Shown piece after piece: positions 6,219-32,217 of a DNA stretch of 64,000 nucleotides. The stretch spans positions 1 through 64,000 of the forward strand of contig JADDQF010000117.1 of NCBI GenBank assembly GCA_016781505.1. Direction: 5' to 3'. The position numbers and the translations under genes were made by a program. The DNA comes from a bacterium. Its GTDB lineage: Bacteria > Chloroflexota > Chloroflexia > Chloroflexales > Kallotenuaceae. Every line of letters begins with the position of its first letter. Positions within the stretch are counted from its first letter, which is position 1. The notes under the pieces are model-generated. The model was not told where the DNA came from, searched no databases, and saw nothing but the letters and a program-made list of their open reading frames with translations.

Positions 6219-6370
6219 GATGACCAAACAAATAACGGACGAGCCAGCGCCCATCCGTCGCGAGTACATGAATCCAGCGCAGCACGCTACGTGCCACAGC
6301 CTGCTGCCGGTCACCAAAACATATCGTCCAGCCCAGCGTTTGGCTGCGCACTCAGGTACGCAGCCAACGG

Positions 6371-6376
6371 TATAAT
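6371..6376 (+). promoter_or_regulatory. -10 box immediately before the VTT gene
   Basis: TATAAT lies seven bases before the ATG at 6384. A normal transcription start would fall on or beside that ATG, which points to a leaderless or nearly leaderless message. No clear -35 hexamer is seen. Confidence 0.4.
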
Positions 6377-6383
6377 GAAGGGA

Positions 6384-6974
6384 ATGATTGACGAAACAAC
6401 GAGCAGCCGAGCCAACGGAACACAGCGGCGCTCGGCCCGCAACGTACGATACGTCCGCATCGCCGCCCTGCTGGTCGTGGCACTTGGTCTGAACCTGCTG
6501 GTGCTGGCAATTCCCGGCAGCTGGATCGCAGGCTTACGGGGATATGGCCTGTTAGGGTACGCCGCCGCGTTCGGCATTACGGCGCTGGCCAATGCTTCGG
6601 TGGTGGTGCCCGTGCCCTACCCAACCATGATCGCGCAGCTGGCACGGGTTATGGACGATGCACTTGGAGTTGCGATCGTGGGGGCAGCCGGGTCGACAAT
6701 CGGCGAGACCACTGCCTTCGCCGTAGGCCGCGCAGGTCGGGCCGTGATCGAAGACACCCGCTTCGGCCGTTGGCTCAAGCAGCAGCTCCGCTCGCCGCTG
6801 CGGGCTTGGCTCGTGTTGTTCCTGCTCAGCGCCCCGCCCAACCCCTTTTTCGATGTCGCCGGTCTCACGGCTGGCTCGCTCGGCGTGCCGTTTTCCGTCT
6901 TTTTCACGGCAACCTTTGCGGGCCGCATCATCAAGCTGCTGATCTTCGCGGAGCTTGGCCGAGGCTTGTTGTAA
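6384..6974 (+). CDS. VTT-domain (YqaA/DedA-like) membrane protein
   Basis: A 196-residue protein with about four or five hydrophobic segments. After a short basic N-terminus comes a first helix (IAALLVVALGLNLLVLAI). The VTT core follows: ALANASVVVPVPYPTMIA, a glycine-rich stretch AIVGAAGSTIGETTAFAVG, and a second half APPNPFFDVAGLTAGSLGVPF before a last hydrophobic helix. VTT/DedA proteins are membrane transporters or scramblases with re-entrant helices; the PNPFFDVAG motif is closest to the YqaA-type subgroup. The frame is open further upstream, but the sequence before residue 1 is not family-like. ATG 6384 or ATG 6375 could be used. It is convergent with the next gene and stands alone. Confidence 0.75.
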   Translation: MIDETTSSRANGTQRRSARNVRYVRIAALLVVALGLNLLVLAIPGSWIAGLRGYGLLGYAAAFGITALANASVVVPVPYPTMIAQLARVMDDALGVAIVGAAGSTIGETTAFAVGRAGRAVIEDTRFGRWLKQQLRSPLRAWLVLFLLSAPPNPFFDVAGLTAGSLGVPFSVFFTATFAGRIIKLLIFAELGRGLL

Positions 6975-15901: not shown

Positions 15902-18832
15902 ATGGCTCAGCCCACCCAGTCGAGCACCGAACCACCGCACACTCCAGCGCAGGACTGGATCATCGTGCGGGGCGCGCGCGAGCATAATCTTAAAAACGTC
16001 GATGTCGATATTCCCAAAAATAAGCTGGTGGTCATCACCGGCTTGTCCGGCTCGGGCAAATCCACGCTCGCCTTTGATACCATTTTCGCCGAAGGCCAGC
16101 GCCGCTATGTCGAGTCGCTGTCGGCGTATGCGCGGCAGTTCCTGGGCCAGCTCAACAAGCCCGACGTCGATCATATCGAGGGCTTATCGCCAGCCATCGC
16201 CATCGACCAAAAATCGACCACGCGTAATCCACGCTCAACGGTGGGCACCGTCACCGAAATATACGACTATTTGCGCCTGCTCTTTGCCCGCATCGGCACG
16301 CCCCATTGTCCCATGTGTGGCCGGATCATTCAGCAGCAAACGCCCCAGCAAATTGTTGACGCGCTTTTGGCGCTGCCGGATCGGACTCGGCTGCTGATCT
16401 TAGCGCCGTTGGTCGAAAACAAACGGGGTGAACACCACAAAGTGTTGGACGATGCCCGCAAGGCTGGCTTTGTGCGTGCCCGCGTCGACGGCGCCGTGTA
16501 TGACCTGGACGAAGAGCTCAAGCTTGAAAAACACAAAGCACATACCATCGAGGTGGTGGTTGATCGGCTGATTATTCGCCAGGCCGAGCCGCCCGTGCCC
16601 GTCGCCGAGCACCCCGACCGCATCCGCGTCGCCGACTCGGTCGAGACCGCCTTGAAGCAGGGCGCTGGCGTCCTGATCGCCCAGATTGTGGATGACGCTG
16701 AGCTGCGCTTTTCCGAACATTATGCTTGTCCCGAGCACGGCGCGCTGCCCTACGGCCCGTTCGAGCCGCGCGACTTTTCGTTTAACAATCCGCGCGCAGC
16801 CTGCGAGACCTGTGGCGGCCTCGGCAGCGTGCTGGAGATCGACGCCGATCTGGTGATTCCCGACCGCAACCTGTCCATTGCCCAGGGCGCGATTGCTCCG
16901 TGGTGGCGGACAGGCCGCAATGCGCGGCGCTACTTCGAAGAGCTGTTAGGCTCCGTCGCGCAACACTACGGCTTTAACTTCGACACGCCCGTGCGCGATC
17001 TTTCGCCCGACGTCGTCAACGTGATGCTGTACGGTTCCAGCCAACCGCTGCCGCTCCGCTACCATGTTCGCGGCCGAACGCACACGGTTGAAACTCCATT
17101 TGAAGGCGTGGTGCCCTACCTCAAGCGCCGTTTGAGCGAGTCGACCGACGAGTCGTCGTCGGAGCTGTTCACGCAGTACATGAGTCCGCGCCAGTGCGGC
17201 ACTTGCAAGGGCGCCCGGCTCCGCGTCGAGCCGCTCGCCGTCACCATCCGCGACCGCAACATCGCCGAAACGTGCGCCCTGCCGATCGCTGCTGCGCTCG
17301 CCTGGTTTGACGGTCTTGCACCGCAACCGGGTGCCTCCATTGCCGATGGCGCGTTGTTGCCGCGCCAGCAAACGATTGCCGAGCCGATTATTCGAGAAGT
17401 AGGCGCACGGCTGCGCTTTTTGCTCGACGTCGGCCTGGATTACCTGACGCTGGATCGTACCGCCGCGACCCTGTCCGGGGGCGAGGCCCAGCGTATTCGG
17501 CTGGCCACGCAGATCGGCTCCGGGCTTTCGGGTGTGCTGTATGTGCTGGACGAGCCCAGCATCGGGCTCCATCCGCGCGACCACGACCGCTTGCTTCAAA
17601 CGATCATGGGGCTGCGCAACCTGGGCAACTCTGTGCTCGTGGTCGAGCATGACGCCGAGACCATGCGCGCCGCCGACTATCTGATCGACGTTGGCCCGGG
17701 TGCGGGCGAGCACGGCGGTGTGGTGATCGCCACCGGCACGCCCCAGCAAATCATGGGCAATCCCCGTTCGTTAACCGGCGCTTTCTTGAGTGGCAGCCGC
17801 GCGATCCCGCTGCCGCGGCAGCGCCGCCCCGGCAACGGCAACCAGCTCGTGATCGAGGACGCGCGGGAGCACAACCTCAAAAAGATCACCGTCGCGCTGC
17901 CGTTAGGAACGCTGATCTGCGTCACCGGTGTTTCTGGCTCGGGCAAGTCCACGCTGGTCGAAGATATTTTGTCCCGCAAGCTGCACCAGCACTTTTACAA
18001 CAGTCGGGCCCAGCCCGGAGCCCACGCGGCCATCCATGGCCTTGAACATCTCGACAAAGTCATCGGCATCGACCAGTCGCCGATTGGCCGCTCGCCACGC
18101 TCCAATCCGGCCACCTATACCAAAGTCTTCGACGCTATGCGCCAGCTGTTCGCGCAAACGCCCGAAGCCCGCGCGCGTGGCTACAATGCCGGCCGCTTTT
18201 CATTTAACGTCAAAGGCGGACGGTGCGAGAACTGCAAAGGCGAGGGCATGATCGAGGTCGAGATGCAGTTTTTGCCCGACCTGTTCGTGCCCTGCGAAGT
18301 CTGCGGCGGGGCGCGCTACAACCGCGAAACGCTCGACATTCGCTACCGCGGCCGAAACATTGCCGAAGTGCTCGAGATGACGGTTGAAGAAGCGCGCGGC
18401 TTTTTTGAGCGCATCCCGGCGATCCATGGCCGTCTCCAAACCCTGCACGATGTTGGCCTCGATTATCTGCGGCTGGGCCAGCCCGCCAACACGCTTTCTG
18501 GCGGCGAGGCGCAGCGCATCAAGCTCGCCAGCGAACTGGCCAAGCGATCCACGGGCCGCACCATCTACATCCTGGATGAGCCAACCACTGGCCTCCACTT
18601 TGCCGATGTCGAACAGCTGCTCAGCGTGCTGCAGCGCCTGGTCGACGCGGGCAACACCGTGCTGATCATCGAGCATAATCTGGACATCGTCAAAAGCGCG
18701 GATTGGGTCGTGGACATCGGGCCGGAAGGCGGCGCGGCCGGCGGCGAGGTGATCGTTGCGGGGCCACCAGAAAGCGTTGCCCAGCATTCGGCGTCGTATA
18801 CCGGCCACTACCTGCGGTCGGTCATCCGCTAA
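15902..18832 (+). CDS. uvrA: excinuclease ABC subunit A
   Basis: A 976-residue DNA-damage sensor of nucleotide excision repair. Two ABC ATPase modules are complete: Walker [15 protein letters not shown] near residue 47 and [13 protein letters not shown] near 677, two signature loops LSGGEAQRI, and two Walker B segments ([24 protein letters not shown]). The [19 protein letters not shown] loop is typical of UvrA. The C-terminal zinc finger is regular (CENC ... CEVCGG). The first one reads CPEH ... CETC, so one usual cysteine is histidine. AAGGA precedes the ATG. No uvrB or uvrC lies in the window. A stem follows the stop codon. Confidence 0.96.
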
Positions 18833-19038: not shown

Positions 19039-19068
19039 TTGACGCTCGCTTCACGGCCTGGGTAGAAT
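19039..19068 (+). promoter_or_regulatory. promoter of the V4R-kinase operon
   Basis: TTGACG at 19039-19044, 18 bases, then TAGAAT at 19063-19068. Both hexamers are close to consensus. The predicted start near 19075 leaves a 55-base leader before the V4R gene. Confidence 0.6.
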
Positions 19069-19131
19069 GACGCCAGGAGCGCATCGTCCCAGTCCACAGC
19101 CACGTCTCGTTGCATCGAAGGAGCTGATCAT

Positions 19132-19785
19132 ATGCCGGCGACCAATCCAAGTGTTGCGCGTACTGAGCTGGAGCCTCGCTTTTACCCCAACAAAATTGGA
19201 CGCTTGACATTGCTGAGCCTGGAAGATGTGATGGGCCGTAATGGCGTTAATGCGCTGCTCAATCTAGCCGGTGCAAAGCAGTGGGTCAACAGCTTTCCAG
19301 CCAACGATTACAAGCGCGAGATTGCCTACTCGGATTTTGCCGCGGTTATGGAAGCGATGGAAATGATGTACGGCGTGCGTGGCGCGCGCGGCATGGAGCT
19401 TCGGGCCGGGCGCTATGCCTTTAACCTGGGACTGAAAGAGTTCGGCCCGCTGCTGGGCGTTGGCGACCTCGCGCTCAAGCTGATGCCGATGACGATCAAG
19501 ATGAAGATCACCCTGAATCTAACGGCGCGCACCTTTGCCAGCTATGCCGACCAACCGACACGCCTTGAAGAGCGCAAAGGCCAGTTCTTGTACATCATCG
19601 AGAAGTGTCCGGTCTGCTGGGGACGACACACGGACAAGCCGAGCTGCTTTATCGCGCAGGGCATTCTGGAAGAAGCCCTGAGTTGGGTCACCGGCGGCCG
19701 CAACTTCAAGGTCGAGGAGATTGAGTGTTGCAGCGTCGGAGGCACGAGCTGTACCTGGGCGATCGACAAAGAGCCGATCGACTAG
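19132..19785 (+). CDS. V4R-domain protein (probable ligand sensor)
   Basis: A 217-residue soluble protein; the C-terminal 90 residues look like a V4R (vinyl-4-reductase) domain. Its cysteines are arranged CPVC ... C ... VEEIECCSVGGTSC. The last cysteines and the preceding glutamate have the same spacing as the zinc site of V4R-containing phenol sensors such as MopR (Glu, Cys three later, Cys eight later, and another Cys about 27 before), so a zinc-stabilised ligand pocket is a reasonable inference. The N-terminal part (residues 20-120) resembles the alpha/beta start of the same domain family. It opens the operon that contains the response regulator and the giant kinase. V4R domains often feed bacterial signalling, so this is probably the sensor protein. 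Confidence 0.65.
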   Translation: MPATNPSVARTELEPRFYPNKIGRLTLLSLEDVMGRNGVNALLNLAGAKQWVNSFPANDYKREIAYSDFAAVMEAMEMMYGVRGARGMELRAGRYAFNLGLKEFGPLLGVGDLALKLMPMTIKMKITLNLTARTFASYADQPTRLEERKGQFLYIIEKCPVCWGRHTDKPSCFIAQGILEEALSWVTGGRNFKVEEIECCSVGGTSCTWAIDKEPID

Positions 19786-19936
19786 CCGACCAGGGGAACC
19801 GCACCGGGTCACAAGCCCAACCGGGAGCGTGCCGCGTGACTTCAGCGACCGGAGGGTCTACGTACACAAGCAACAGTTGTTGTCCTGCCGGGCACTGGTT
19901 GTCGCCACACGCAGCGACTGATGGAGTGAATGGTTT

Positions 19937-21211
19937 ATGAAGCGCGTTGTTTTGCGTGCGCCTACCCCAATTGCACCGTTTGGAGAGCCAGCGCGTGAGC
20001 TGCGGATCCTGAATAAGCCGTTGTGGCTGCTGCAGCGCGACGTGCTCGCGCGCCATTGCCAAAGCACCGTCGAGATCGATACCCTTGACGAGCTGCCGGC
20101 AGGCGCTGGCGAGCTGTTGGTCCACAAAGACAATCAGTTCTTCAACGAAGCGCTGATCGACACCTTTATTGTAGCGGCGCGGCGATCCGGTCATGCCTGC
20201 CAACTTGCGTTCACGTTGGACGATAAAGCCATCACCACCCATGCGCTGCGTCTGCAGGATGGCATTCGCCGGCAAGGCGATGTGTATGTCGCCGATGTTT
20301 TTTACTATCCCCATGGAGCGCAGGCCAACCCCGAGCCGTTGGTTGTCGCGACCGAGCCGCGTGAGATGGGCTACTACCATATCCCGTCGTATATGGCGCC
20401 CAACCACGGCGATCTGACCTACCAGATTCCACTGCGCGCTTTTTTGTCGCTTGAGCATTGGCTCCATGTCTTTATCGCCAATTCGCCGTTCGGGGTCTTC
20501 GCCTGGGCCCGCAAAATGGAGCACGAGGTTGAGGCGAGCTGGCGCACCAAGCTCCGGGTAAGCGCCCGCGCTCTGATCGAGCGGAGACATTTTCTCCAGT
20601 GCTCGGCGCTAGTGAAAATCGGGAAAAACTGCTCGATTGATCCGACCGCCATCATCCAAGGGCCAACAGTGATCGGTAACAACGTCCATATTGGAGCCGG
20701 GGCTGTGGTTGTATCCAGCTTGATCGGCAACAACGCGACCATTATGCAGGGCTCGCAAATCATGCTCAGCGTGGTCTCGGATCGTTGTTACCTGCCGTTC
20801 AATGCCAGCCTGTTTATGACCACCTTGATGGAAAATTCGATGGTGGCCCAGCTGAGCTGCCTGCAAATGTGCGTTGTTGGCCGAAATACCTTTATTGGCG
20901 GCGGCAATATCTTTACCGACTTTGACCTGATGGGTAAGCCGATCACAGCCATGTGGAAAGGCGAATTGCACGAAGTCGGGATGCCGGTGCTTGGCTCGGC
21001 GGTTGGGCATAACGTCAAGCTTGGTTCGGGGTTTGTGGTGTATCCGGCGCGGATGATTGAATCGGACACGGTGCTGGTCTACGCCGACGACCACGCGGTT
21101 ATTCCCAAAAACGTTACAACGGGGGTGTACACCCGCCCGCCCGTCTTTTATCCGACGCGCGATCCGCGCGTGCAGCTCCACGATCCGCTCGATGGTCCCG
21201 TTACGCGGTAA
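19937..21211 (+). CDS. left-handed beta-helix (hexapeptide-repeat) protein
   Basis: A 424-residue protein. About residues 20-215 form an alpha/beta region that I do not recognise beyond a loose resemblance to nucleotidyltransferase-like N-termini. From about residue 225 hexapeptide turns start (VKIGKNCSIDPTAIIQGPTV, IGNNVHIGAGAVV) and recur to about residue 390, the left-handed beta-helix used by acyltransferases and GlmU-like enzymes. No catalytic histidine assignment is possible. The ATG is preceded by GGAG at 10 bases. It follows the V4R gene by 151 bases and precedes the response regulator by 43. The operon context suggests a structural or regulatory partner rather than a sugar-pathway enzyme, but this is inference. 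Confidence 0.6.
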   Translation: MKRVVLRAPTPIAPFGEPARELRILNKPLWLLQRDVLARHCQSTVEIDTLDELPAGAGELLVHKDNQFFNEALIDTFIVAARRSGHACQLAFTLDDKAITTHALRLQDGIRRQGDVYVADVFYYPHGAQANPEPLVVATEPREMGYYHIPSYMAPNHGDLTYQIPLRAFLSLEHWLHVFIANSPFGVFAWARKMEHEVEASWRTKLRVSARALIERRHFLQCSALVKIGKNCSIDPTAIIQGPTVIGNNVHIGAGAVVVSSLIGNNATIMQGSQIMLSVVSDRCYLPFNASLFMTTLMENSMVAQLSCLQMCVVGRNTFIGGGNIFTDFDLMGKPITAMWKGELHEVGMPVLGSAVGHNVKLGSGFVVYPARMIESDTVLVYADDHAVIPKNVTTGVYTRPPVFYPTRDPRVQLHDPLDGPVTR

Positions 21212-21254
21212 CGGCACTTGCCGACCGCACCACATTTTTCAGGAGATTACCTCG

Positions 21255-22190
21255 GTGTCGAAGGATTCATTGCTTATCGTCGAAGACGCGCCTGATATCC
21301 AGATGCTGCTCAAAATCTACTTCTCGTCGCAAGGCTATGACGTGCATGTCGCCGGACGCGGCTCGGAAGCGCTTGAGCTTGTACGCAAGCAGCTGCCCAA
21401 TCTCGCCCTGCTGGACGTCAACTTGCCCGATATGTTGGGCTATGACATCGGCAAGGCCATTCGCGCCAACGCGCGCACCCGCAATGTCCCGATTATCTTT
21501 CTGACGGCGCGTACCGAAAAGCAGGATATGCTGGTCGGGCTCGGCGAGGTCGAGGCCGAAGCCTATATTGCCAAGCCGTTCGATATTGAGCTGCTGCATC
21601 TGGAAGTGCGCAATACCCTCAAGCGGGCGCGCCAGAAAAACCAGACGCATCCGGTTACGAATCTGCCGACCGCCGACGCCGTGAACGAGCAGCTGCGGGC
21701 CTTGCTGACGCGCACGGGCTGGGCGCTTACCATGATTCGCATCGAGCAGTTCGATGCCTTCACGCAGGGCTACGGCTCGGTCAGCGGCGAAGAGGTGCTC
21801 AAGTTCATGGCGCTGCTGGTGAACGAGATCGTCGGGGAGCTGGGCCAACCCGAGGATTTTGCCGGCCAGATGACCACGGGCGCGGAGTTTATCCTGATTG
21901 GCGCACCCGCAACCAGCCGCACCATCGCAAAACTGCTTGCCGAACGCTTCGACGCCCAAATCGGGCTGCACTACAACTATCGCGACCGCAAGCTTGGCGG
22001 AATGAAGCTGTTCGACGGCAACGGAAACGAGCAAACTGTCGCCTTTATGTCGCTGGCGATTGGCGTGCTTGACGCTACCAAAGGTCCGTTCTATGACATT
22101 CGGGAGTTGACGGAAACCGTGGAAGCCGTCCGCCAAAGCGCCCGTTCCTTGGCCAGCAGCACAGGCAAAAGCGCGACTGTTGTCGCTTAA
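21255..22190 (+). CDS. response regulator with degenerate GGDEF-like output domain
   Basis: A 311-residue protein. The receiver domain (1-120) is intact: LLIVEDAPD acidic pair, phosphorylatable aspartate in LLDVNLPD, TAR threonine and the lysine in IAKPF. The second half begins with NLPTADAVNEQL and has GYGSVSGEEVLKFMALLVNEIV, the pattern of diguanylate cyclase domains, but the GGDEF loop reads TTGAEF, so cyclic-di-GMP synthesis is unlikely. The start is GTG with AGGAG nine bases upstream; an open frame extends further 5' into the preceding gene but lacks family similarity. The stop lies close to the kinase start, so the two are translationally linked, and phosphotransfer between them is probable. 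Confidence 0.78.
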   Translation: MSKDSLLIVEDAPDIQMLLKIYFSSQGYDVHVAGRGSEALELVRKQLPNLALLDVNLPDMLGYDIGKAIRANARTRNVPIIFLTARTEKQDMLVGLGEVEAEAYIAKPFDIELLHLEVRNTLKRARQKNQTHPVTNLPTADAVNEQLRALLTRTGWALTMIRIEQFDAFTQGYGSVSGEEVLKFMALLVNEIVGELGQPEDFAGQMTTGAEFILIGAPATSRTIAKLLAERFDAQIGLHYNYRDRKLGGMKLFDGNGNEQTVAFMSLAIGVLDATKGPFYDIRELTETVEAVRQSARSLASSTGKSATVVA

Positions 22191-22203
22191 AGAAAAGCAA
22201 CTC

Positions 22204-25200
22204 ATGCCGATCAAGCTCTCGTCCCCGCAAGCCGGCTTTCAAGCCATTGCCGCGCTCGCTCGTTGGCTGCCGCACGCGCCAACTGCTGCGCCAGCGGTCG
22301 CCGCGTGCATCCCGGCCCTGCTAGCCGCCGAGCTACCCGGACTCCGGCTCAGCCTTGCGCTTGAGCAACAGGGCGCCTGGCTGCTTCATGGAGAAACGAG
22401 CCAAGCCGCGCAAGCCTGGCTGGCACACCAGGCCGTTCAGCCGCTGCCACCTGTCGCTTCAGCAAGCGCGTCTCGGCCGGCACAGGAACAACCTGTCCAC
22501 AGCACAGTGCTGGAACCTGCTGGTGAGCTGCGCGTGGCGCTCGCTATCTGGAGCAAAGCGTTTTCGCCCGACGCCTTTGCCGCGCTTGCCGCGCAGATCG
22601 CGCTTGCCTTCACCAGCCTACGTTGCACTCGGCCCGGCGCTACCCGGAGCAGCACGCGCGAGCTGCAAGCGCTCCAGCATGTAGCCGGAGAATTGAACGC
22701 GACCTTGGACCTGGATCGGGTGTTTGCGGCGGTGCTTGCGGAAGCGTGTGCCACAACTGGAGCGCTGTACGGCGGCATTGCGCTGCGCCAAAACGACGAT
22801 GAGTTTAGGTATGTACAAGCCACCGGTCCAGACGAGCGCGGCGCTGAATCATTGCTCCAGGGAGGTTTAAGTCAATCCGCACGTGCTGCCGTGGAGCAGA
22901 ACAAGCCAATCGTTGTCCTGCCGCTGGAGCAAGCGGCTGGCTCGCCGGAAGCGCACGTAGCCACAATCGATGTTCCGATCCACTACGGCGAGCAGGTCGT
23001 CGGGCTGCTTACGCTGCATTCACCCCCAGCTACAACCGGCGTTGCTGACCATGTTCCATTTATCCGCCTGCTGGCCGACCAAGCTGCCATCGCCATCGGA
23101 AATGCCGAGCACGCCGCCGAGCACCTGCGTCAGCGCGAGCTTTTGCAACAACGGGCCAGTGTGCTTAACGAAGTTCTTGAAGTTGGACATCTGCTGCGCG
23201 CTGACCGAGCACTGGCCGACATGCTCAACGACATTGCGTATGGCATCGTCAATGCCGTCGGGTTCCGGTCGGTGATCATCAACCTCCGGGACGAAGCAAA
23301 TCCGGCGTGTTTTGTGCCGCTGGCGTTTGCCGGTGTACTGCCGCACGATGTGGACAGATTGCGCTCTGAAGGACTCTCCGCGGAGCTCGTGGACCAGCTG
23401 TGTGCCGCGCAGTGGCGCTTAAGCTCGTCCTACCTCGTCCCAGCCTCAGCTGTGGACGGGGTGGCTGCGCGGAAGCTCGATCAGCTAACCACACCCAGCG
23501 TACCCGATCAGCACGGCAGTTCCGGATGGCAAGCCGGCGATCTGTTTATCACGCCGCTCAAAGACGCGGCCGGCACGCTGATTGGCTTGATCTCGGTTGC
23601 GGAACCATTTGACCGGCGTCGGCCCACCCGCCGCTCTGCGGAGGCGATCGAAATCTTTGCCAACCAGGCCACGATCGCGATCGAGAATGTCCGTTTGTAC
23701 AACGATTCGCAGTGCCGCCTGACGGAACAAAACGCGCTCAATCGCATTCAACAATCGATCAGCGCTTCGCTTGACGTACGCGATATGCTGCGCGCCGTGT
23801 ATGTTGGGTTGGCGTCGGCGCTGGAGATCGACTCGTACTACAGCTTGATCTACGACCAAGATAATCCCGACATCGGCGTGGCAGTCTCGGTTGACGAGGG
23901 GGAGTGGTATATCGAGCAGATCAGCGGCCTGTACCAGTACCGTGGCTTACACGCCTACCTGATGCACACGCGACAACCATTATGCTTCAACGATCTGCGT
24001 ATCGAACAGATCAACCTGCCGGCCGAGTTTCGGGTGGTTGCATTTGGCGATAACAGCAAGCGCTCCGCCTCGTGGATGGGCGTTCCGTTGATCGCCCACG
24101 ACAACGAGCTGATCGGCGCACTGTCGGTGCACTCGTACACGCCCCATCGCTTCGGGCGCAAGGAACTAGCCTTTTTGCAAGCTGTCACCCACCAGGTGGC
24201 GATCAGCTTCCAAAATGCGCGCTTGTTCGCCGAGCGTGAGCGCCGCCTCCATGAAGTCCATGTTGTCAACCAGCTAGCGCAAGCCCTGGCCGCGCCGATC
24301 AGCCCGGAAGAACTAGCCGATGTGCTGTACACCCAGCTGCATCAGGCGCTCCATACCAGCTCGGTGCTGCTGGCAGTGCATGATCGCAAAAACGATCTGC
24401 TGGAGTTTCCGCTTGTTGTTGACCAGGGGCAGCGCTGCCATATCGCGCCGATGCCGGGTGGTCAAGGTGTGGTGGAGCACATGCTGCGCACCCGCCAGCC
24501 CCTGCTGTTGAACGACGATATCACGGCGCAACTCAAGCTGCTTAACATCGAGGACGCGGACGAAGGGGCCCGCAGCTTCGTTGGCACGCCGCTGCTGGTT
24601 GGAAATGAGGCCGTGGGCGTGATCGTGATTCGGGATTACGAGCGTAACAATGCCTTCGGTCAGCATGAGCTCACATTTCTCCAATCTCTCGCACTCCAGG
24701 TTGCATCCGGCATCGAGAAGGCGCGCCTTCTACAGGAACGTGAGCGGGAGATCAATCAGATGCATACGTTGAACAACATCGGCAAGGTTTCAAGCTCAAC
24801 GCTTGACCTCCATGCGCTGTTCACTGCGATGTACACTGAGCTTATCCGCTACCGCAAAATCGACATATTGATGGTCAGCGTGTGCGAACCCGCTACGCAT
24901 ACCCTGCTGCAAATGCTGACCGTCGACAACGGCGAGCTCCAACAGGTCGATGGCCCAAGACCGATTCCGCCACATAGCTATACTGATGTTGTGATGCGGA
25001 CCGGCGCGCCGCTGCTGCTGCGGGATGCCCGTACCGAAAAAGCGCTGCATGAGATTGCGCCCGTTGTGCACGGCCAGGGCGTCGAAGCCTTATCACTCGT
25101 CTGCGTGCCGCTGCTCAACACCTCAGGCCAGCGCTTCGGGGTGTTGTCGATGCAGAGCTACGCCGCGAGCCAATACGACCTGCGCGACATTGACTTCCTG

Positions 25201-28200
25201 AGCAATGTTGCCCATCAGATCGCGCTCAACATTCAAAATGCGGCGCTTTTCAGGCAATCGCAGGAGCAGGTCAAGCAGCTTGCGAGTGAAATGGAGCGGA
25301 TGGAGCTGATTAACCGGGTATCTAGCTGGGCTGGCGAGCTTCTGGATGTCCAAGAACTGCTCCAGCGCACCGTGAATGAGATGGCGCGCGTCACCAAAGC
25401 GGACCAGGTGCGCCTGTTGCTGCTTGATCGCGCGCGCGATATCGGCATTTGTCAGGCTGAGCTCCACGACACAGGGTCAGTTGGCCGCTTGGTTGTACAG
25501 CTGACCGGCAATCCGGCGATCGAGTGGTTCGACCAGCATCGCACCTCATTGCTGATCCCGAACGCCGTCCATGATCCCCGCTTCGCGGCGGTCCATCATG
25601 TTTGGCGGGCCGAAAATATTCGTGATGTGCTGATTGTGCCGTTGATCGTGAATGGCGAGATCATTGGCTCGATCGGGCTGGATGCCCAAGCACGCGAGGA
25701 AACGTTCGCCGCGCGCGACGTGGCGACCTGTGAAACAATCGCCAATCAAGTAGCCGTCGCCATCGAAAATGCGCGGCTGTGGCAGGCGACCCAACAAAGT
25801 GTCCGTGAACTGACCACGCTCTACGACATCAGCCTCAAGCTCACCACCATGGTTGATCTTGATGCGATTTTGGCAACCCTGGCCAGCGCCGCGGTTGAGC
25901 TGGAGCAGGCCGATCTCGGGGCGATTGTGCTGCTCGACACGGCCCAGCGCGTCAGCCGTTTCGCCGGGCGAACACGCTGCGGCGAGCAGGTCGATCCGAC
26001 GCCCTTCAGCACCAACCCATATATTTTGGAGCTGATGCACGAGCCAAAGCCGCTGGTTGTGAGTGGCTTTGGCGATGGGAGCCGGAACGCCTGGCTAGAG
26101 CTAGCCGAGCCGATGCACAGCGGCATTATGGTGCCGATCGTCGTCAAGAGCCAGCCCGTGGGCGTGCTCATGATCGCCGCTGGGGAAGCCCGCGTCTGGT
26201 CCGAGCGAGAACAGTCACTGTTGTCGATTTTGGGCGGCCAAGCCGCCTCGGCCATCGAGAACGCATCCTTGTTTACCTCGGAGCAAGAAAAGCGGCAGCT
26301 GGCCGATACATTGCGCGAAGTTGGCCTCGCCCTCACCTCAACACTCGACCTGCGCGAGGTGCTGGAGATGATCTTGGTGCAGCTGCGGCGCGTCGTACCG
26401 TATGACAGCACATCCATGCAGCTGCTGCGCGACGACAATCAGCTTCAGATCATCGCGGGCTGCGGCTTCGACGACATGCGCTCGTTTGACAACATTTCGT
26501 TTCCGGCGGATAGTCCCGACCACCCAAACCACTGGGTGATCGAAACGCAGCGCCCCTTGATCGTTTCCAACACGCGGGTCGAGTATCCATGCTTCTATGT
26601 CGGGCCGCAATCGGATCATATCCGCTCCTGGATGGGCGTGCCGCTGGTGTATGGCAACCAGGTGCTTGGGATGATTGCACTTGATAGCCGAGAGCTCAAC
26701 TTCTACACCGACGCGATGGCCGATGTTGCCCTTATGTTTGCCACGCAGGCCGCTCAAGCGATCGCCCAAGCCCGCCTGTTTGACCAAATCCGCCAGTTCA
26801 ACGTCGAGCTTGAGCACAAGGTGGCGGATCGAACTGCGGCGCTGACAGCCGAGAAAGAACGCCTCGAGGCCGTGCACGCCATCACCACAACCCTGACGGC
26901 TTCGCTTGATATCGACGAAATCGTGCTTAAGACCTTGGAGCTTGTCGCCGGCGTAATCGGCGCGCGTCGCGGCTCCCTCTTGATTCGTGATCCGATGCGC
27001 GAAGCGCTGATCTACCGGGCCGTACTAACCGAGCCCGAAGGAGTGATCGCAACAGACAAGCCGTTTGATTTACCGCCCGGGAACATGGTGCAGTGGACAA
27101 TGGAGCATGAACAGGGCGTTGTGATCGCGGATGTATGCAACGACGAACGTTGGCTCAACACTGGCCCACAGTCCAACCATATCCGGTCGTTTATTGCGGT
27201 ACCGTTGCTGGCAGCGGATGTACCGCTAGGTGTGCTGATGCTCAATCACAGCGAGCCAGGATTTTTCAATGAAGGGCATTTGCGGTTGCTCTCGACCATC
27301 GCCAGCGAGGTAGCGATTGCGGTGCACAACGCAGAGCTGTACAACTTTATCAACGAACAAGCTACCCGGCTGGCCGAGTTGCTGCAAGCGCAACGGGAAG
27401 AAACAGGCAAGAACCGAGCGATCTTGGAGTCGGTCGCCGAAGGGGTGCTGGTGCTGGACGAGCAGGATACCATCGTGCTGTTCAATCAGGCAGCCAGTCA
27501 AGTCCTGCAGATTGCCGACACGATCATTGTCGGCCAAAGCCTGCGACGCATGGCCGAGCACGGCGACGCGGCGGGCCAAATGCGGGTGTTGCCGTTGTAC
27601 ACGGCGCTGGTGGAAGGCATTGCCGGTGCGCGCCAGCACAGCGATCCGATCAACCGGCTGCTTGAACTGCCGGGACAAACCATCGACCTGACCTTTACGC
27701 CGGTCACTACACCTGACGGCGATCGCCTGGGGGTGGCCGTGGTGCTGCGTGACATTACGCGCGAGATTGAGTCGGACAAGGCCAAACGTGAGTTTATCGC
27801 GACCGTATCGCACGAGCTACGCACGCCGCTGACCTCAGTCAAGGGCTATATCGATCTGCTCTTGCTCGGCACCGCTGGGCCTATCAGCGAGATGCAGCAG
27901 AGCTTCTTGCAGGTGGTGAAGTCCAATGCGGACCGGCTCAATGGGCTGGTGGAAGACCTGCTGGAAATTTCACGGCTGGAAAACGGCAAGCTGACCCTCA
28001 ACATCAAGCCGCTGCACATATGGGATCTGATCAACGACATTGCGGCGTTGTTACGCACGGAAACCGAGCGCAAACGCATGCAGCTTGTGCTGGAGATCGA
28101 GCCTACGCTTCCGCTGATCGAGGCAGACGGCAAACGGATCAGCCAAGTGCTGACAAATCTGTTGTCGAACGCGCACAAATACACTCGTGATGGTGGTGAA

Positions 28201-28521
28201 ATCACCGTGCGCGTGTATCGCCGTGACGCGCTGATCCAGGTCGATGTGTCCGACACCGGCGTGGGCATCCCACCCGACGAGCTATCCAAAATGTTTTCGC
28301 GCTTTTTCCGCTCCAATAACTCGCTCAAAGACGAAGTCGGCGGCACAGGCCTGGGCTTGTCGATTGCCAAGTCTTTTGTGGAACTGCACGGCGGCACAAT
28401 GTGGGTCACGAGCGAGCTTAACGTTGGCAGCACGTTTAGCTTTACGCTGCCGATCCAGTACCGCCCACCGCTGGTAGACGGCGTCAGCCACGCTTTGAGC
28501 GAGGTAGTAGATGCGGCCTAA
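22204..28521 (+). CDS. giant sensor histidine kinase with nine GAF domains and a PAS domain
   Basis: A 2105-residue soluble kinase. After about 150 N-terminal residues it has nine GAF domains in series, each about 160-170 residues and each ending in the same pattern (...QAAIAIxNAxLY/LF), at about 155-310, 315-510, 515-690, 695-855, 860-1020, 1025-1195, 1200-1360, 1365-1530 and 1540-1715. A PAS domain (GVLVLDEQDTIVLFNQAA, about 1735-1860) follows. Then come a HisKA dimerisation helix with His1870 in VSHELRTPLTS, and an HATPase_c domain with the N box (LTNLLSNAHKYT), DTGVGIPPDE, F box and GTGLGLSIAKSF. No transmembrane helix is visible. A TTG eight codons earlier also lies in frame and overlaps the response-regulator stop. 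ATG 22204 is my choice. Confidence 0.88.
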   Translation: MPIKLSSPQAGFQAIAALARWLPHAPTAAPAVAACIPALLAAELPGLRLSLALEQQGAWLLHGETSQAAQAWLAHQAVQPLPPVASASASRPAQEQPVHSTVLEPAGELRVALAIWSKAFSPDAFAALAAQIALAFTSLRCTRPGATRSSTRELQALQHVAGELNATLDLDRVFAAVLAEACATTGALYGGIALRQNDDEFRYVQATGPDERGAESLLQGGLSQSARAAVEQNKPIVVLPLEQAAGSPEAHVATIDVPIHYGEQVVGLLTLHSPPATTGVADHVPFIRLLADQAAIAIGNAEHAAEHLRQRELLQQRASVLNEVLEVGHLLRADRALADMLNDIAYGIVNAVGFRSVIINLRDEANPACFVPLAFAGVLPHDVDRLRSEGLSAELVDQLCAAQWRLSSSYLVPASAVDGVAARKLDQLTTPSVPDQHGSSGWQAGDLFITPLKDAAGTLIGLISVAEPFDRRRPTRRSAEAIEIFANQATIAIENVRLYNDSQCRLTEQNALNRIQQSISASLDVRDMLRAVYVGLASALEIDSYYSLIYDQDNPDIGVAVSVDEGEWYIEQISGLYQYRGLHAYLMHTRQPLCFNDLRIEQINLPAEFRVVAFGDNSKRSASWMGVPLIAHDNELIGALSVHSYTPHRFGRKELAFLQAVTHQVAISFQNARLFAERERRLHEVHVVNQLAQALAAPISPEELADVLYTQLHQALHTSSVLLAVHDRKNDLLEFPLVVDQGQRCHIAPMPGGQGVVEHMLRTRQPLLLNDDITAQLKLLNIEDADEGARSFVGTPLLVGNEAVGVIVIRDYERNNAFGQHELTFLQSLALQVASGIEKARLLQEREREINQMHTLNNIGKVSSSTLDLHALFTAMYTELIRYRKIDILMVSVCEPATHTLLQMLTVDNGELQQVDGPRPIPPHSYTDVVMRTGAPLLLRDARTEKALHEIAPVVHGQGVEALSLVCVPLLNTSGQRFGVLSMQSYAASQYDLRDIDFLSNVAHQIALNIQNAALFRQSQEQVKQLASEMERMELINRVSSWAGELLDVQELLQRTVNEMARVTKADQVRLLLLDRARDIGICQAELHDTGSVGRLVVQLTGNPAIEWFDQHRTSLLIPNAVHDPRFAAVHHVWRAENIRDVLIVPLIVNGEIIGSIGLDAQAREETFAARDVATCETIANQVAVAIENARLWQATQQSVRELTTLYDISLKLTTMVDLDAILATLASAAVELEQADLGAIVLLDTAQRVSRFAGRTRCGEQVDPTPFSTNPYILELMHEPKPLVVSGFGDGSRNAWLELAEPMHSGIMVPIVVKSQPVGVLMIAAGEARVWSEREQSLLSILGGQAASAIENASLFTSEQEKRQLADTLREVGLALTSTLDLREVLEMILVQLRRVVPYDSTSMQLLRDDNQLQIIAGCGFDDMRSFDNISFPADSPDHPNHWVIETQRPLIVSNTRVEYPCFYVGPQSDHIRSWMGVPLVYGNQVLGMIALDSRELNFYTDAMADVALMFATQAAQAIAQARLFDQIRQFNVELEHKVADRTAALTAEKERLEAVHAITTTLTASLDIDEIVLKTLELVAGVIGARRGSLLIRDPMREALIYRAVLTEPEGVIATDKPFDLPPGNMVQWTMEHEQGVVIADVCNDERWLNTGPQSNHIRSFIAVPLLAADVPLGVLMLNHSEPGFFNEGHLRLLSTIASEVAIAVHNAELYNFINEQATRLAELLQAQREETGKNRAILESVAEGVLVLDEQDTIVLFNQAASQVLQIADTIIVGQSLRRMAEHGDAAGQMRVLPLYTALVEGIAGARQHSDPINRLLELPGQTIDLTFTPVTTPDGDRLGVAVVLRDITREIESDKAKREFIATVSHELRTPLTSVKGYIDLLLLGTAGPISEMQQSFLQVVKSNADRLNGLVEDLLEISRLENGKLTLNIKPLHIWDLINDIAALLRTETERKRMQLVLEIEPTLPLIEADGKRISQVLTNLLSNAHKYTRDGGEITVRVYRRDALIQVDVSDTGVGIPPDELSKMFSRFFRSNNSLKDEVGGTGLGLSIAKSFVELHGGTMWVTSELNVGSTFSFTLPIQYRPPLVDGVSHALSEVVDAA

Positions 28522-28585
28522 CGTCTTGATCGCCGATATTGGAGCCATACGCTCCACGCAGTTGGTCTTGGTACATGTGGTATGA
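28511..28585 (+). CDS. 24-codon ORF bridging the kinase and hydrolase genes
   Basis: An ATG inside the last codons of the kinase opens a 24-residue frame (MRPNVLIADIGAIRST and eight more hydrophobic residues) that stops with TGA overlapping the ATG of the alpha/beta hydrolase (ATGA). Both ends therefore interlock with neighbours. The hydrolase has no visible ribosome site of its own, so this frame may serve translational coupling. The amino-terminal NVLIADIG resembles the first strand of ASKHA-fold proteins, so a remnant of a longer gene is also possible. No evidence shows that the peptide itself is functional. Confidence 0.3.
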   Translation: MRPNVLIADIGAIRSTQLVLVHVV

Positions 28586-29415
28586 GCGCAATCATTGTCC
28601 AACAACACCTCACACACTACGAAGTTATAGGGCGGGGGCAGCCGGTGCTCTTTTTGCACAGCTGGCTGGGGTCGTGGCGCACCTGGATGCCCACCATGGA
28701 AATGATTGCCGACCGCTACCGCGCGATTGCGCCCGATTTTTGGGGCTTTGGCGACTCAGCTTCCCGCGGCCAGCCCGCTCACATCGACGATTATGTCGAC
28801 CAAATAGTGGGTTTCGTCGACGCGCTTGGCATGCTGCCGCCCCATCTGGTTGGCCATGGGCTAGGTGGCGTTGTGGCGATTCGCGCTGCAAGCGTGCAGC
28901 CGGAACGTTTTGGCAAGGTGCTGGTTACCGGGACACCGGTGCTGGGGCCGCTGTTGCAAACCGTAGTGAAGCCAAGTGGCCTGGGACGCTTGCTCCAGCG
29001 AAGCTCGGGCAACGACCTGTGGATCAAGCTCGTGCGGCAAGTGTCCAACGGCGACGCGGCCTATAACGAAGTGGTCGAAGATATTGCAGCGACCGATCCC
29101 ACAATCCTGCAACACGTGCTCGACGACATGATCACCATCGATCTGCTGCCCGATATCGCGCGCTTGGCGCAGCCGCTCCTGGCAATCTATGGCGGTCGCG
29201 ACCGGGTATTAACCGCCGAGCACGGGCAACAGATCACGGAAACGCACGGCACGTTTCGCCAAGTGTTGACCCTGGAAAAAAGTGGTCACTTTCCGTTCCT
29301 GGATCAGCCGACGCAGTTCAATCGGGCGCTGCTTGAATTTTTAGGCGGCAGCGCGGGCGCGATCGAGCTTAAGGAACTATGGAAGCGCAGGGTGAGCCAG
29401 CGCGAGTTCTTGTAA
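28582..29415 (+). CDS. alpha/beta-hydrolase fold protein lacking the serine nucleophile
   Basis: A 277-residue alpha/beta hydrolase. The fold is clear: LFLHSWLGSW (oxyanion region), DFWGFGDSA, the nucleophile-elbow segment LVGHGLGGVVA, YGGRDRV with Asp207 and KSGHFPFLDQP with His236. In the elbow the consensus GHSxGG reads Gly-His-Gly93-Leu-Gly, so the serine nucleophile is missing while the acid and histidine are kept. The enzyme activity is therefore doubtful; non-catalytic members can be ligand receptors. It lies directly downstream of the kinase through the 24-codon ORF, and a terminator-like hairpin follows, so it is the last gene of that operon. It may be a signalling accessory, by inference. 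Confidence 0.8.
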   Translation: MSAIIVQQHLTHYEVIGRGQPVLFLHSWLGSWRTWMPTMEMIADRYRAIAPDFWGFGDSASRGQPAHIDDYVDQIVGFVDALGMLPPHLVGHGLGGVVAIRAASVQPERFGKVLVTGTPVLGPLLQTVVKPSGLGRLLQRSSGNDLWIKLVRQVSNGDAAYNEVVEDIAATDPTILQHVLDDMITIDLLPDIARLAQPLLAIYGGRDRVLTAEHGQQITETHGTFRQVLTLEKSGHFPFLDQPTQFNRALLEFLGGSAGAIELKELWKRRVSQREFL

Positions 29416-29437
29416 GCAAGCGCCCAACTTCTTCGGG

Positions 29438-29473
29438 CCTCCGATGCAGTTTCAAAACCCGTCGGAGGATTTT
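29438..29473 (+). terminator. terminator of the kinase-hydrolase operon
   Basis: CCTCCGA and TCGGAGG form a perfect 7-base-pair stem with a 17-base loop, followed by ATTTT. It lies 22 bases after the hydrolase stop. Confidence 0.5.
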
Positions 29474-29717
29474 GTCGCTTTCCGTGTAAAGGGGCCTCCA
29501 CAAAGACAAGCATAGGCTAGCACCCGCAAGTCGGTTACTGCTCAACCCCCTCCACGAGATAGTGCTACGCAACGAGGCGCTGTTTGACGCCCACTTGCAA
29601 ATGGGGCATCAAGGCTGCATGATATACGGATGTCACTTGTCCGACGGATGGGGGCCGATGGCGCCGCAGCAAGCGCGGCAAAGCCTGGACTGTGCGTCTA
29701 TGCTCCATACACGTACA

Positions 29718-29734
29718 TTACGTGCGCCACGTAA
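29718..29734 (+). promoter_or_regulatory. inverted repeat, candidate operator of the DNA polymerase gene
   Basis: TTACGTG and CACGTAA flank CGC, a perfect 7-7 palindrome with a three-base spacer, ending 17 bases before ATG 29752. If translation starts at 29752 this is a plausible repressor site or short hairpin. If the GTG at 29692 is used, it lies within the coding frame. Confidence 0.35.
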
Positions 29735-29751
29735 AGGCAGTGCAGCCACCG

Positions 29752-32217
29752 ATGTTGTTGCAAGCGGAGCGCGACAAGCTGATCGACGAGCATCTTTTTG
29801 GCTGGGACCCGACCCCAGGCATCGTATCCGTGTGGGCCGACCGGCTTGGATCGGCCTGGGTCTGGCAGCGCATTGCAGGGCAGGTCCGTTGCACAGAAGA
29901 TGTGTTCTGTCCCTGGCTGCTGGCGACGACCCTGGCCGATCTAGCCCAGCTTGGACCGTCGTTGCAGCCGGAGAACGGGCAAGGAGAGCTTGACGCGGCG
30001 GTAAGCTATCGCGAGTTGGACGGACCGCACGACGGGTATCGCTTCCTGCTGTTGGCACGACCCGGCTTCGCGTTGGAGCGAGCGATCATTGCGGGGGCCA
30101 GCCGGCGCCTCGGCCGGTCCGTTCAGAGTATCCATGACCTGGATGACACCTACTATCGCGTAGGGCCGGTCGAGCAGTACCTGATGGCCAGCGGGCGGGT
30201 GTATTTTCGCGGCCTGGTCTACGCCGATCTGCACCGGCTCCAGTTCGACCTTGAAACAACCGCGCTGGACCCTGAGCAGGGGCGCATCTTCATGATCGCC
30301 GTGCGCGACAGCCACGGGCTGGCCTTGACGCTGGAAGCGCCGACGGCGCGGGATGAAGCGCGTTTGATTCAAGACCTGTGCCGGGTGATTCGGGAGCGCA
30401 ATCCCGACATCATCGAGAACCACAACCTGTTTGGTTTCGATCTGCCATTTTTGCAGCGCCGCGCGGAGTTGTTGGGTGTGCCGCTCGCGCTGCGCCGAGC
30501 CGGCCCCCCTGGCGCACAGGCTCGTCCGGCAGACGTCGAACATTATGGCGATCCGTTTCGCTGGCACAGGAGCAGGCGGCGCTCACGCATGAGCATCCCC
30601 GGACGTGAGCTGATCGATACGCTGGACGCCGTCCGCCGCTATGACTTCGCCGCCCGCGATCTGCCCAGACATCGCTTGAAGGACGTGGCCAAACATTTTG
30701 GGGTAGCCCGGCCGGAGCGGGTTTATCTTGCGGGCGCCGAGGTATTCGCCACGTACCGCACGCAGCCGGAGCGCGTCCGGCAATATGCGCTCGACGACGT
30801 GGCCGAGGTTGATAGCTTATCCCAGCGCCTGCTTGGAGCACCCTTCGCGTTAGCCGGGATGGCGCCCCGCCGTTATGAACGGCTGGCATCGGCAGGCCCG
30901 GCGATGGGCATTTTGGAGCCACTGTTGGTACGGGCGTATGTACGGGCCGGCGCGGCGCTGCCCCGACAACACGCGGCGTCTAGCGACGAACCCGATCCCC
31001 ATGCGGGTGGCGCGCTTCATCTGTATGCGACGGGGATAGCGGAACAGGTCGTCAAGGCGGACGTAGCATCGCTGTACCCGTCGATCATGCGTACCTATCA
31101 GATCGGTCCAGCCTGCGACCGACTGGAGGTGCTGCTCGCGCTGGTTGATCGATTAACGGATCTGCGCCTCCAACACAAGGCTGCAGCCCAGGCTGCACAG
31201 CCGGGGTCGCTCGCGGCAGGTGTCCACACGGCCTACCAAGCAGCCATGAAAATCCTGATCAACTCTGCCTATGGGTATCTCGGGGCAGGCCAAATGGCGC
31301 TGTTTGCGGATCGGCAGGCGGCGGGTGAGGTGACCCGGCGTGGTCGCGAGGTTTTGGACCAGGTGGTGGCGGCGCTGCAAGAACGCGGCATGGCTCTGAT
31401 CGAAGCCGATACCGATGGCGTGTATTTCGCCGTGCCCAGCTCGTGGGATGAGGCCCGGGAACGGGCGCTGGTGGCCGAGATCGGGCAGCGCTTACCGGTG
31501 GGTATTCGCCTTGAGTTCGAAGGGCGCTATCAGGCCATGTTCAGCCACGAGGTTAAGAATTACGCCTTGCTGACCTACGCCGGCGAACTTATCGTGCGGG
31601 GAGTGGCGCTCCACTCAAGCCGGGTTGAGCCCTTCGGGGAGCGCTTTCTGCGCCAAGCATTACGCTGCACACTACGTGGCGATGTTGCCGGCGTACGCGC
31701 TGCCTTTCTTGCAACCGAAGCAGCGTTGCTCAACCAGGAATTGACGGTGGCCGATGTGGCCAGCCGGGTACGATTGTCCAAATCGGCGGAGACGTACGCC
31801 GAAACACGCGCAACTCATCGTGAACAACACTACGAGGCGCTGCTCAACGCCGGGCGCACGACCTGGTCCATGGGTGAGCGGATACGTGTGTATCGGGGCC
31901 AAGACGGTAACGCCGTGTGGCTGCCCGACGAGCACGACGACCACGAGATCGGTGGTAACTGGGCCAGGCGCGATACATCAAATCAGTCCACAAAAGCAGA
32001 GCTGGCCGAGCCGCCAACCGCCGAGCGGCGCGACTATGACGTTGAGCATTATCTGCAGGTGCTCGTCTCTTCCTACGCCAGCCGGCTCCGTAAAGCATTT
32101 GCGCCCGCCGACTTCGATCAACTTTTTCGGCTCGACTTGCAGCGGGGACTGTTCGACCTACCAATTGAGCAGATCCAACCTTTATGGATTCGCTGCGACA
32201 CGCCCTCAGACGGTTAA
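29752..32217 (+). CDS. family B DNA polymerase with 3'-5' exonuclease
   Basis: An 821-residue family B DNA polymerase. The exonuclease motifs are DLETTAL (Asp166, Glu168), NHNLFGFD (Asn223 to Asp230) and Y345-x-x-x-Asp349. The polymerase palm has motif A KADVASLYPS (Asp437), motif B K500-x-x-x-N-S-AYG and motif C ADTDG (Asp553, Asp555). All catalytic acids are present, so both synthesis and proofreading should work. Such enzymes are rare in bacteria other than DNA polymerase II; this one resembles archaeal types and occurs in Chloroflexota. I start at ATG 29752, where family similarity begins (FGWDPTPGIVSVWAD follows 15 residues on); the frame is open to GTG 29692. A replication or repair role is likely, not proven. 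No partner genes lie beside it. Confidence 0.85.
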   Translation: MLLQAERDKLIDEHLFGWDPTPGIVSVWADRLGSAWVWQRIAGQVRCTEDVFCPWLLATTLADLAQLGPSLQPENGQGELDAAVSYRELDGPHDGYRFLLLARPGFALERAIIAGASRRLGRSVQSIHDLDDTYYRVGPVEQYLMASGRVYFRGLVYADLHRLQFDLETTALDPEQGRIFMIAVRDSHGLALTLEAPTARDEARLIQDLCRVIRERNPDIIENHNLFGFDLPFLQRRAELLGVPLALRRAGPPGAQARPADVEHYGDPFRWHRSRRRSRMSIPGRELIDTLDAVRRYDFAARDLPRHRLKDVAKHFGVARPERVYLAGAEVFATYRTQPERVRQYALDDVAEVDSLSQRLLGAPFALAGMAPRRYERLASAGPAMGILEPLLVRAYVRAGAALPRQHAASSDEPDPHAGGALHLYATGIAEQVVKADVASLYPSIMRTYQIGPACDRLEVLLALVDRLTDLRLQHKAAAQAAQPGSLAAGVHTAYQAAMKILINSAYGYLGAGQMALFADRQAAGEVTRRGREVLDQVVAALQERGMALIEADTDGVYFAVPSSWDEARERALVAEIGQRLPVGIRLEFEGRYQAMFSHEVKNYALLTYAGELIVRGVALHSSRVEPFGERFLRQALRCTLRGDVAGVRAAFLATEAALLNQELTVADVASRVRLSKSAETYAETRATHREQHYEALLNAGRTTWSMGERIRVYRGQDGNAVWLPDEHDDHEIGGNWARRDTSNQSTKAELAEPPTAERRDYDVEHYLQVLVSSYASRLRKAFAPADFDQLFRLDLQRGLFDLPIEQIQPLWIRCDTPSDG

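Follow-up and report, generated by a model that had tools for sequence, protein, structure and literature searches.

Five adjacent genes on one strand of a Chloroflexota genome raise the question of what joins a V4R-domain protein, a beta-helix protein, a response regulator, a giant multi-GAF histidine kinase and an alpha/beta hydrolase that has lost its nucleophile. The genes lie in a 64,000-nucleotide stretch of a Kallotenuaceae assembly (GCA_016781505.1, contig JADDQF010000117.1, positions 1 to 64,000), hereafter the window, and are referred to as V4R, LbH (left-handed beta-helix, or hexapeptide, protein), RR (response regulator), HK (histidine kinase) and ABH2 (terminal alpha/beta hydrolase). 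A first-pass annotation had proposed them as a signalling operon; reading frames and Pfam domains confirm all five, in the order proposed, from 19132 to 29415 on the forward strand (Table 1). Comparison with other genomes extends this guess, made from one genome, to a conserved group of about ten genes common to several Chloroflexota lineages, and the five window genes almost certainly form one functional unit. The best overall explanation, to which we give slightly less than an even chance, is that they encode a cytoplasmic two-component relay that was ancestrally coupled to a small GTPase switch.

Conservation of the gene set and its co-occurrence with a Ras-like GTPase

Gene neighbourhoods within the class were compared by tblastn, and 32 genomes (from families f1-f4 of the Chloroflexales and from f6 and f8 outside that order) have contigs that span the locus. 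The order LbH-RR-HK-ABH is found in all 32; in 18 contigs HK and ABH share a 4-bp overlap, and V4R lies directly 5' in 18. Of the 41 nearest genomes 34 have a V4R match, as do 69 of the 158 class genomes. Across these 158 the genes are jointly present or absent, with V4R, LbH, RR and ABH all missing together from g5 (11 genomes) and g31 (2 genomes). Recurrence of the gene order had been set beforehand as a condition for treating the genes as one system, and the order is not unique to the window, being seen in every gene-bearing family of the Chloroflexales and in other classes. The idea that unrelated genes are adjacent by chance could draw on the 151-bp gap between V4R and LbH and on the lack of a clear promoter or terminator signature, yet it is already refuted, and has next to no probability left: the order persists in about a dozen families from several classes, there are 4-bp overlaps between genes, and the genes are lost jointly.

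Relatives of LbH with 42-59% identity were also identified in 24 genomes outside the class (families f19, f25, f51, f74, f77 and f82), which are probably Anaerolineae. There the genes belong to a longer operon with the order DUF4388 - Ras-like GTPase - ABH1 - V4R - LbH - Z - RR - HK - RR2 - ABH2, in which ABH1 is an active paralogue of ABH2, RR2 is a single receiver and HK is mostly 2300-2490 aa long. Pfam and NCBIfam searches support the first two assignments (DUF4388, 3e-25; Ras, 2e-11, and ATP_bind_1, 1e-21, for the GTPase). DUF4388-GTPase-ABH1 is located near LbH, on its upstream side, in 13 of 15 loci, Z is part of the cluster in 12 of the 15 and RR-HK follows downstream in 11, while every one of the 11 loci traced beyond the kinase has RR2 and ABH2 there. 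A Roadblock gene (8e-18 in L127) adjoins V4R in L127 and in L036, where the arrangement is Roadblock-V4R-RR. The first-pass annotation recognised one unit but missed RR2, the active ABH1 and the module of DUF4388, Ras-like GTPase and Roadblock. Herpetosiphon-like genomes have RR2 as well, and a genome of the window's own genus (G003, locus L040, about 6260-6700 on the minus strand of the locus) carries it as a complete second single-receiver gene between HK and ABH. In the window the HK-ABH gap is only 60 bp, from which we infer that the window lineage lost RR2.

Co-occurrence with the GTPase was evaluated in 301 genomes of the phylum, which include 53 with LbH, 56 with V4R and 57 with the GTPase. 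LbH is accompanied by V4R in 53 of 53 genomes and by the GTPase in 52 of 53. In the Chloroflexales, 28 of 29 LbH-bearing genomes have the GTPase, unlinked to the operon and, in several, next to a putative mnmA (named from sequence). Two genomes, G236 and G362, have no LbH, yet their GTPase and V4R genes are adjacent. Actinobacterial conservons pair a kinase with Roadblock and GTPase proteins, the kinase being stimulated by an accessory protein with a GAF domain (PMC13343842); PATAN genes adjoin MglA/MglB homologues (PMC4316618). Coupling to the GTPase in most lineages seems to us somewhat more probable than its absence. The genes could instead encode a stand-alone multi-input two-component system, the GTPase module being merely adjacent elsewhere and co-retained since both suit large filamentous genomes. 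This would agree with a GTPase that is missing from the window genome and unlinked in the order, and with complete kinase and receiver motifs. We consider it rather unlikely, as it does not account for the 52 of 53 co-occurrences, the GTPase-V4R adjacency without LbH in G236 and G362, or Roadblock-V4R-RR in L036.

In the Chloroflexales (L138-L148), the genes for DUF4388 and the Ras-like GTPase make up a locus of their own, and a second locus carries Roadblock, DUF4388 and GTPase genes, plus, in L142, the active hydrolase. The g5 genomes are G007, G028, G033, G035, G037, G039 and G077-G081, and the GTPase is missing in the six tested. No PilT-like secretion ATPase was found in any of the 11 g5 genomes; this link is only suggestive because g5 is one clade and g31, also without the system, keeps such an ATPase. 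In Chloroflexus-like f4 genomes (L057, 3813-6707; L059, 3907-6545), V4R is located between genes for a MoCF_biosynth (MoaB-like) protein and an ECF sigma factor, and in L057 this context is followed by a small protein without family assignment.

Proposed sensor, relay and output proteins

HK comprises nine GAF domains, one PAS domain, HisKA (SHELRTPL at 1869) and HATPase_c. The count of nine GAFs, given at first from the sequence, held when overlapping pieces of the kinase were scanned: nine pieces yielded one GAF domain each, the second of them weakly. Orthologues range in length from 1654 to 3651 aa. As in functional two-component pairs, the kinase boxes SHELRTPL, NLLSNA, DTGVGI and GTGLGLS are intact, and the receiver of RR retains D54, T84 and K107, which are conserved in aligned relatives; on these motifs, a relay from HK to the neighbouring receiver is quite likely. 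The GGDEF-like domain of RR has lost the GG(D/E)EF active-site motif of diguanylate cyclases, as originally described; the window protein reads TGAEF at this place, and its relatives mostly have sequences of the VGPDF type. All five window proteins appear soluble, the highest 19-residue hydropathy (2.0) lying within a GAF domain of the kinase.

V4R is placed in its family by both the Pfam domain and the predicted fold. Its AlphaFold model (pLDDT 75) is most similar in Foldseek to H-NOX (E 6e-6), then to TRAPPC3, DmpR and MopR. V4R domains bind hydrophobic ligands (PMC2253512), and the protein is a probable hydrophobic-ligand sensor with a cysteine cluster near its C-terminus. The zinc-site-like pattern that had been pointed out is real (C159-x2-C162..C199..C207) but not universal: the cluster is retained in most members of both lineages and nearly lost in Herpetosiphon-like genomes, whose orthologues keep only C207. 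In mouse TRAPPC3 other contacts reportedly replace a zinc site (PMC10933270). Two other identities were rejected. A role as an H-NOX heme sensor, which would call for a conserved proximal histidine, is not supported, as no His is invariant or near-invariant in the V4R alignment, and for BchJ there was no curated bacteriochlorophyll-biosynthesis match in NCBIfam, where only MsvR scored, weakly.

The absence of a nucleophile in ABH2, another claim of the first-pass annotation, is correct and conserved. The window protein has GHGLG, with Gly for Ser at position 93, and keeps Asp207 and His236; in aligned Chloroflexales ABH2 sequences GHGLG or GHGMG stands throughout in place of GxSxG, and the Asp and His are invariant. 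The Ser is missing from 35 of 35 ABH2 sequences of two lineages, replaced by Gly, Ala or Asp, and is present throughout ABH1. A loss specific to the order was ruled out, since ABH2 of other classes also lacks the Ser. In the tree, one branch (92/84) separates ABH1, together with the L109 sequence, from both ABH2 groups, consistent with a single duplication and a single Ser loss if the root is on the ABH1 side. A profile search with the hydrolase also matched D14. The fixed pseudo-hydrolase and its active paralogue make ABH2 a candidate bacterial ligand receptor.

LbH combines a conserved N-terminal domain of about 225 aa with a left-handed beta-helix. The N-terminal 225 aa (window 19937-20611) have no match in Pfam or PDB, and aligned relatives share many invariant residues. 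Classification as a GlmU-type sugar nucleotidyltransferase/acetyltransferase, whose N-terminal domain is a pyrophosphorylase, was rejected because only the beta-helix aligns and the N-terminal domain lacks a Pfam or PDB relative; a gamma carbonic anhydrase, which has three zinc-binding histidines in its helix, was rejected because only H177 and H358 are invariant and H177 lies outside the helix.

Z, the product of the gene that follows LbH in the longer operon, resembles long-chain acyl-ACP reductase (TIGR04058, E 1e-35, falling far short of that model's cut-off) and PigE (3e-66). This similarity, the presence of Z at most of the loci outside the class (12 of 15), the acyltransferases among LbH relatives and the hydrophobic ligands of V4R domains (PMC2253512) could point to an operon for lipid or acyl-chain metabolism with its own regulator, in which LbH would act as an acyl- or acetyltransferase, Z would make fatty aldehydes, ABH1 would cleave acyl esters, and V4R and the kinase would sense the product. 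Such an operon is doubtful, however: Z is missing from family f1, none of the Chloroflexales examined has it within the operon, the hydrolase that these operons retain is the dead form, LbH shows no recognised catalytic motif, and the GTPase co-occurrence is left unexplained. Some Chloroflexales encode proteins, about 700 aa long, that resemble Z over their N-terminal half at about 42% (e.g., G026:C1:4438956-4440041); none occurs in f1.

Parallels and proposed mechanism

Several known systems resemble parts of this one. Like the window genes, H-NOX/HnoK-type pairs combine a stand-alone sensor of similar fold with a neighbouring histidine kinase gene and with receivers whose c-di-GMP domains are degenerate; V4R, however, has no conserved heme His. 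In RsbQ-RsbP and in D14/KAI2/GID1, an alpha/beta hydrolase serves as the ligand receptor for a signalling protein, whereas ABH2 has lost its nucleophile and the active form survives as a separate paralogue. DmpR, XylR, MopR and PoxR share a V4R ligand domain with a Cys cluster, but V4R of the window stands alone, with neither an AAA+ nor a DNA-binding region.

The GTPase-containing loci outside the class resemble actinobacterial conservons (CvnA kinase, CvnB Roadblock, CvnC, CvnD GTPase and the accessory CvnF/E) in co-encoding a histidine kinase and a Ras-like GTPase, with Roadblock in some loci, and GAF sensing is tied to the kinase in both. They differ in that the GAF domains are fused to the kinase and that response regulators, V4R, LbH and two hydrolases belong to the core. 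In the window itself, no GTPase and Roadblock genes stand beside the kinase; the GTPase is found in the longer operon outside the class. Similarly, the MglA/MglB/RomR and PATAN (DUF4388)-MglA neighbourhoods (PMC4316618) have in common with our loci a Ras-like GTPase, Roadblock, PATAN and a response regulator, while V4R, LbH, the multi-GAF kinase and the dead hydrolase are unlike any Mgl module that we found described, and the window contains no such GTPase. The earlier statement that no described pathway has this combination of genes agrees with the open-access papers searched, in which we found none, although this cannot prove that none exists; nothing relevant was found there on Chloroflexus gliding kinases or on V4R with PATAN.

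Based on the conserved and co-inherited gene set, the intact phosphorelay motifs, the inactivated enzyme domains and the conservon and PATAN parallels, we therefore propose a ligand-responsive relay in the cytoplasm that was linked, at least in the ancestor, to a small GTPase switch. Small hydrophobic or acyl-type ligands would be read by V4R, the GAF array and the dead hydrolase, the last of these binding its ligand with the ability to cleave it gone; whether V4R and ABH2 are ligand inputs we regard as evenly balanced. These inputs may control how far the multi-GAF kinase autophosphorylates; the kinase would phosphorylate RR and, where present, RR2, and the dead GGDEF domain and LbH would then be protein-binding outputs rather than enzymes. 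The relay would feed, or be fed by, an MglA/Roadblock/PATAN-type GTPase switch, an ancestral link that probably still exists in most Chloroflexales. The output may be spatial or envelope control, and our guess favours surface motility of filaments; an envelope or motility output is nonetheless a minority possibility. We know of no described means by which filamentous members of the phylum glide.

Together, these features suggest an undescribed bacterial G-protein signalling system. A more far-reaching version, which we rate as unlikely, is a distinct Chloroflexota G-protein system in which V4R (with its TRAPPC3 fold), Roadblock and the dead hydrolase regulate a Ras-like GTPase with the giant multi-GAF kinase, as a counterpart, within a two-component relay, of the GTPase/Roadblock/TRAPP machinery of eukaryotic membrane traffic. 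V4R, Roadblock, the GTPase, the dead hydrolase and the kinase are the predicted partners, and Chloroflexus, Roseiflexus and Herpetosiphon are culturable hosts.

Several observations weigh against a relay coupled to a GTPase. No GTPase was found in the window's own genome (96% complete), the sole exception among LbH-bearing genomes, and it is also missing in G002 and G004; the relay in the window genome may therefore work without it. The Fisher values for co-occurrence (~1e-51 to 1e-56) ignore shared ancestry and overstate independence. Chloroflexaceae-like genomes carry V4R at another locus, and the outgroup f6 (L109) has a Ser-bearing hydrolase at the terminal position. Finally, the lack of a recognised catalytic motif makes LbH a part of the system without an assigned role, and its structure model is poor (pLDDT 47).

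Boundaries and neighbours of the window operon

The first-pass annotation had bracketed the genes with one promoter and one terminator. The proposed single promoter did not stand out, its sigma-70-like sequence being one of 7 matches where shuffled sequences gave 3.5 (sd 1.9). As for the terminator, a hairpin with a 9-bp stem and a few U residues behind it does follow ABH2, but it is weak (z ~ -1 to -2) and was missed by a consensus scan of the region. Promoter, terminator and Rfam scans of the window region gave no decisive signal. A bridging open reading frame had been mentioned without coordinates. The frame that fits best, 28539-29066, merely shadows the hydrolase gene out of frame and has similarity in other genomes only where that gene is present. 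AGGAG immediately precedes the GTG start of RR.

Table 1. Features of the window operon and its surroundings (window positions)
Feature	Position	Strand	Description
V4R protein	19132..19785	+	217 aa; Pfam V4R E 6.3e-11
LbH (hexapeptide) protein	19937..21211	+	424 aa; Hexapep 5.6e-12
Response regulator (RR), GTG start	21255..22190	+	311 aa; Response_reg 6e-24; GGDEF 3e-4, sub-threshold
Histidine kinase (HK), ATG start	22204..28521	+	2105 aa; Pfam GAF, PAS, HisKA, HATPase_c
Dead alpha/beta hydrolase (ABH2)	28582..29415	+	277 aa; Abhydrolase_6 1e-21
Candidate terminator hairpin	29438..29468	+	9-bp stem, then AUUUUGU; weak
Sigma-70-like match TTGACG-18-TAGAAT	19039..19068	+	not clearly over regional chance
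uvrA, upstream neighbour	15902..18832	+	outside the proposed operon

The upstream neighbour uvrA also precedes the cluster in families f1 and f2 and in a number of f4 genomes, and we do not regard it as belonging to the system. On the 3' side of the operon, the gene at 29692-32217 resembles a family B DNA polymerase, as judged by eye only.

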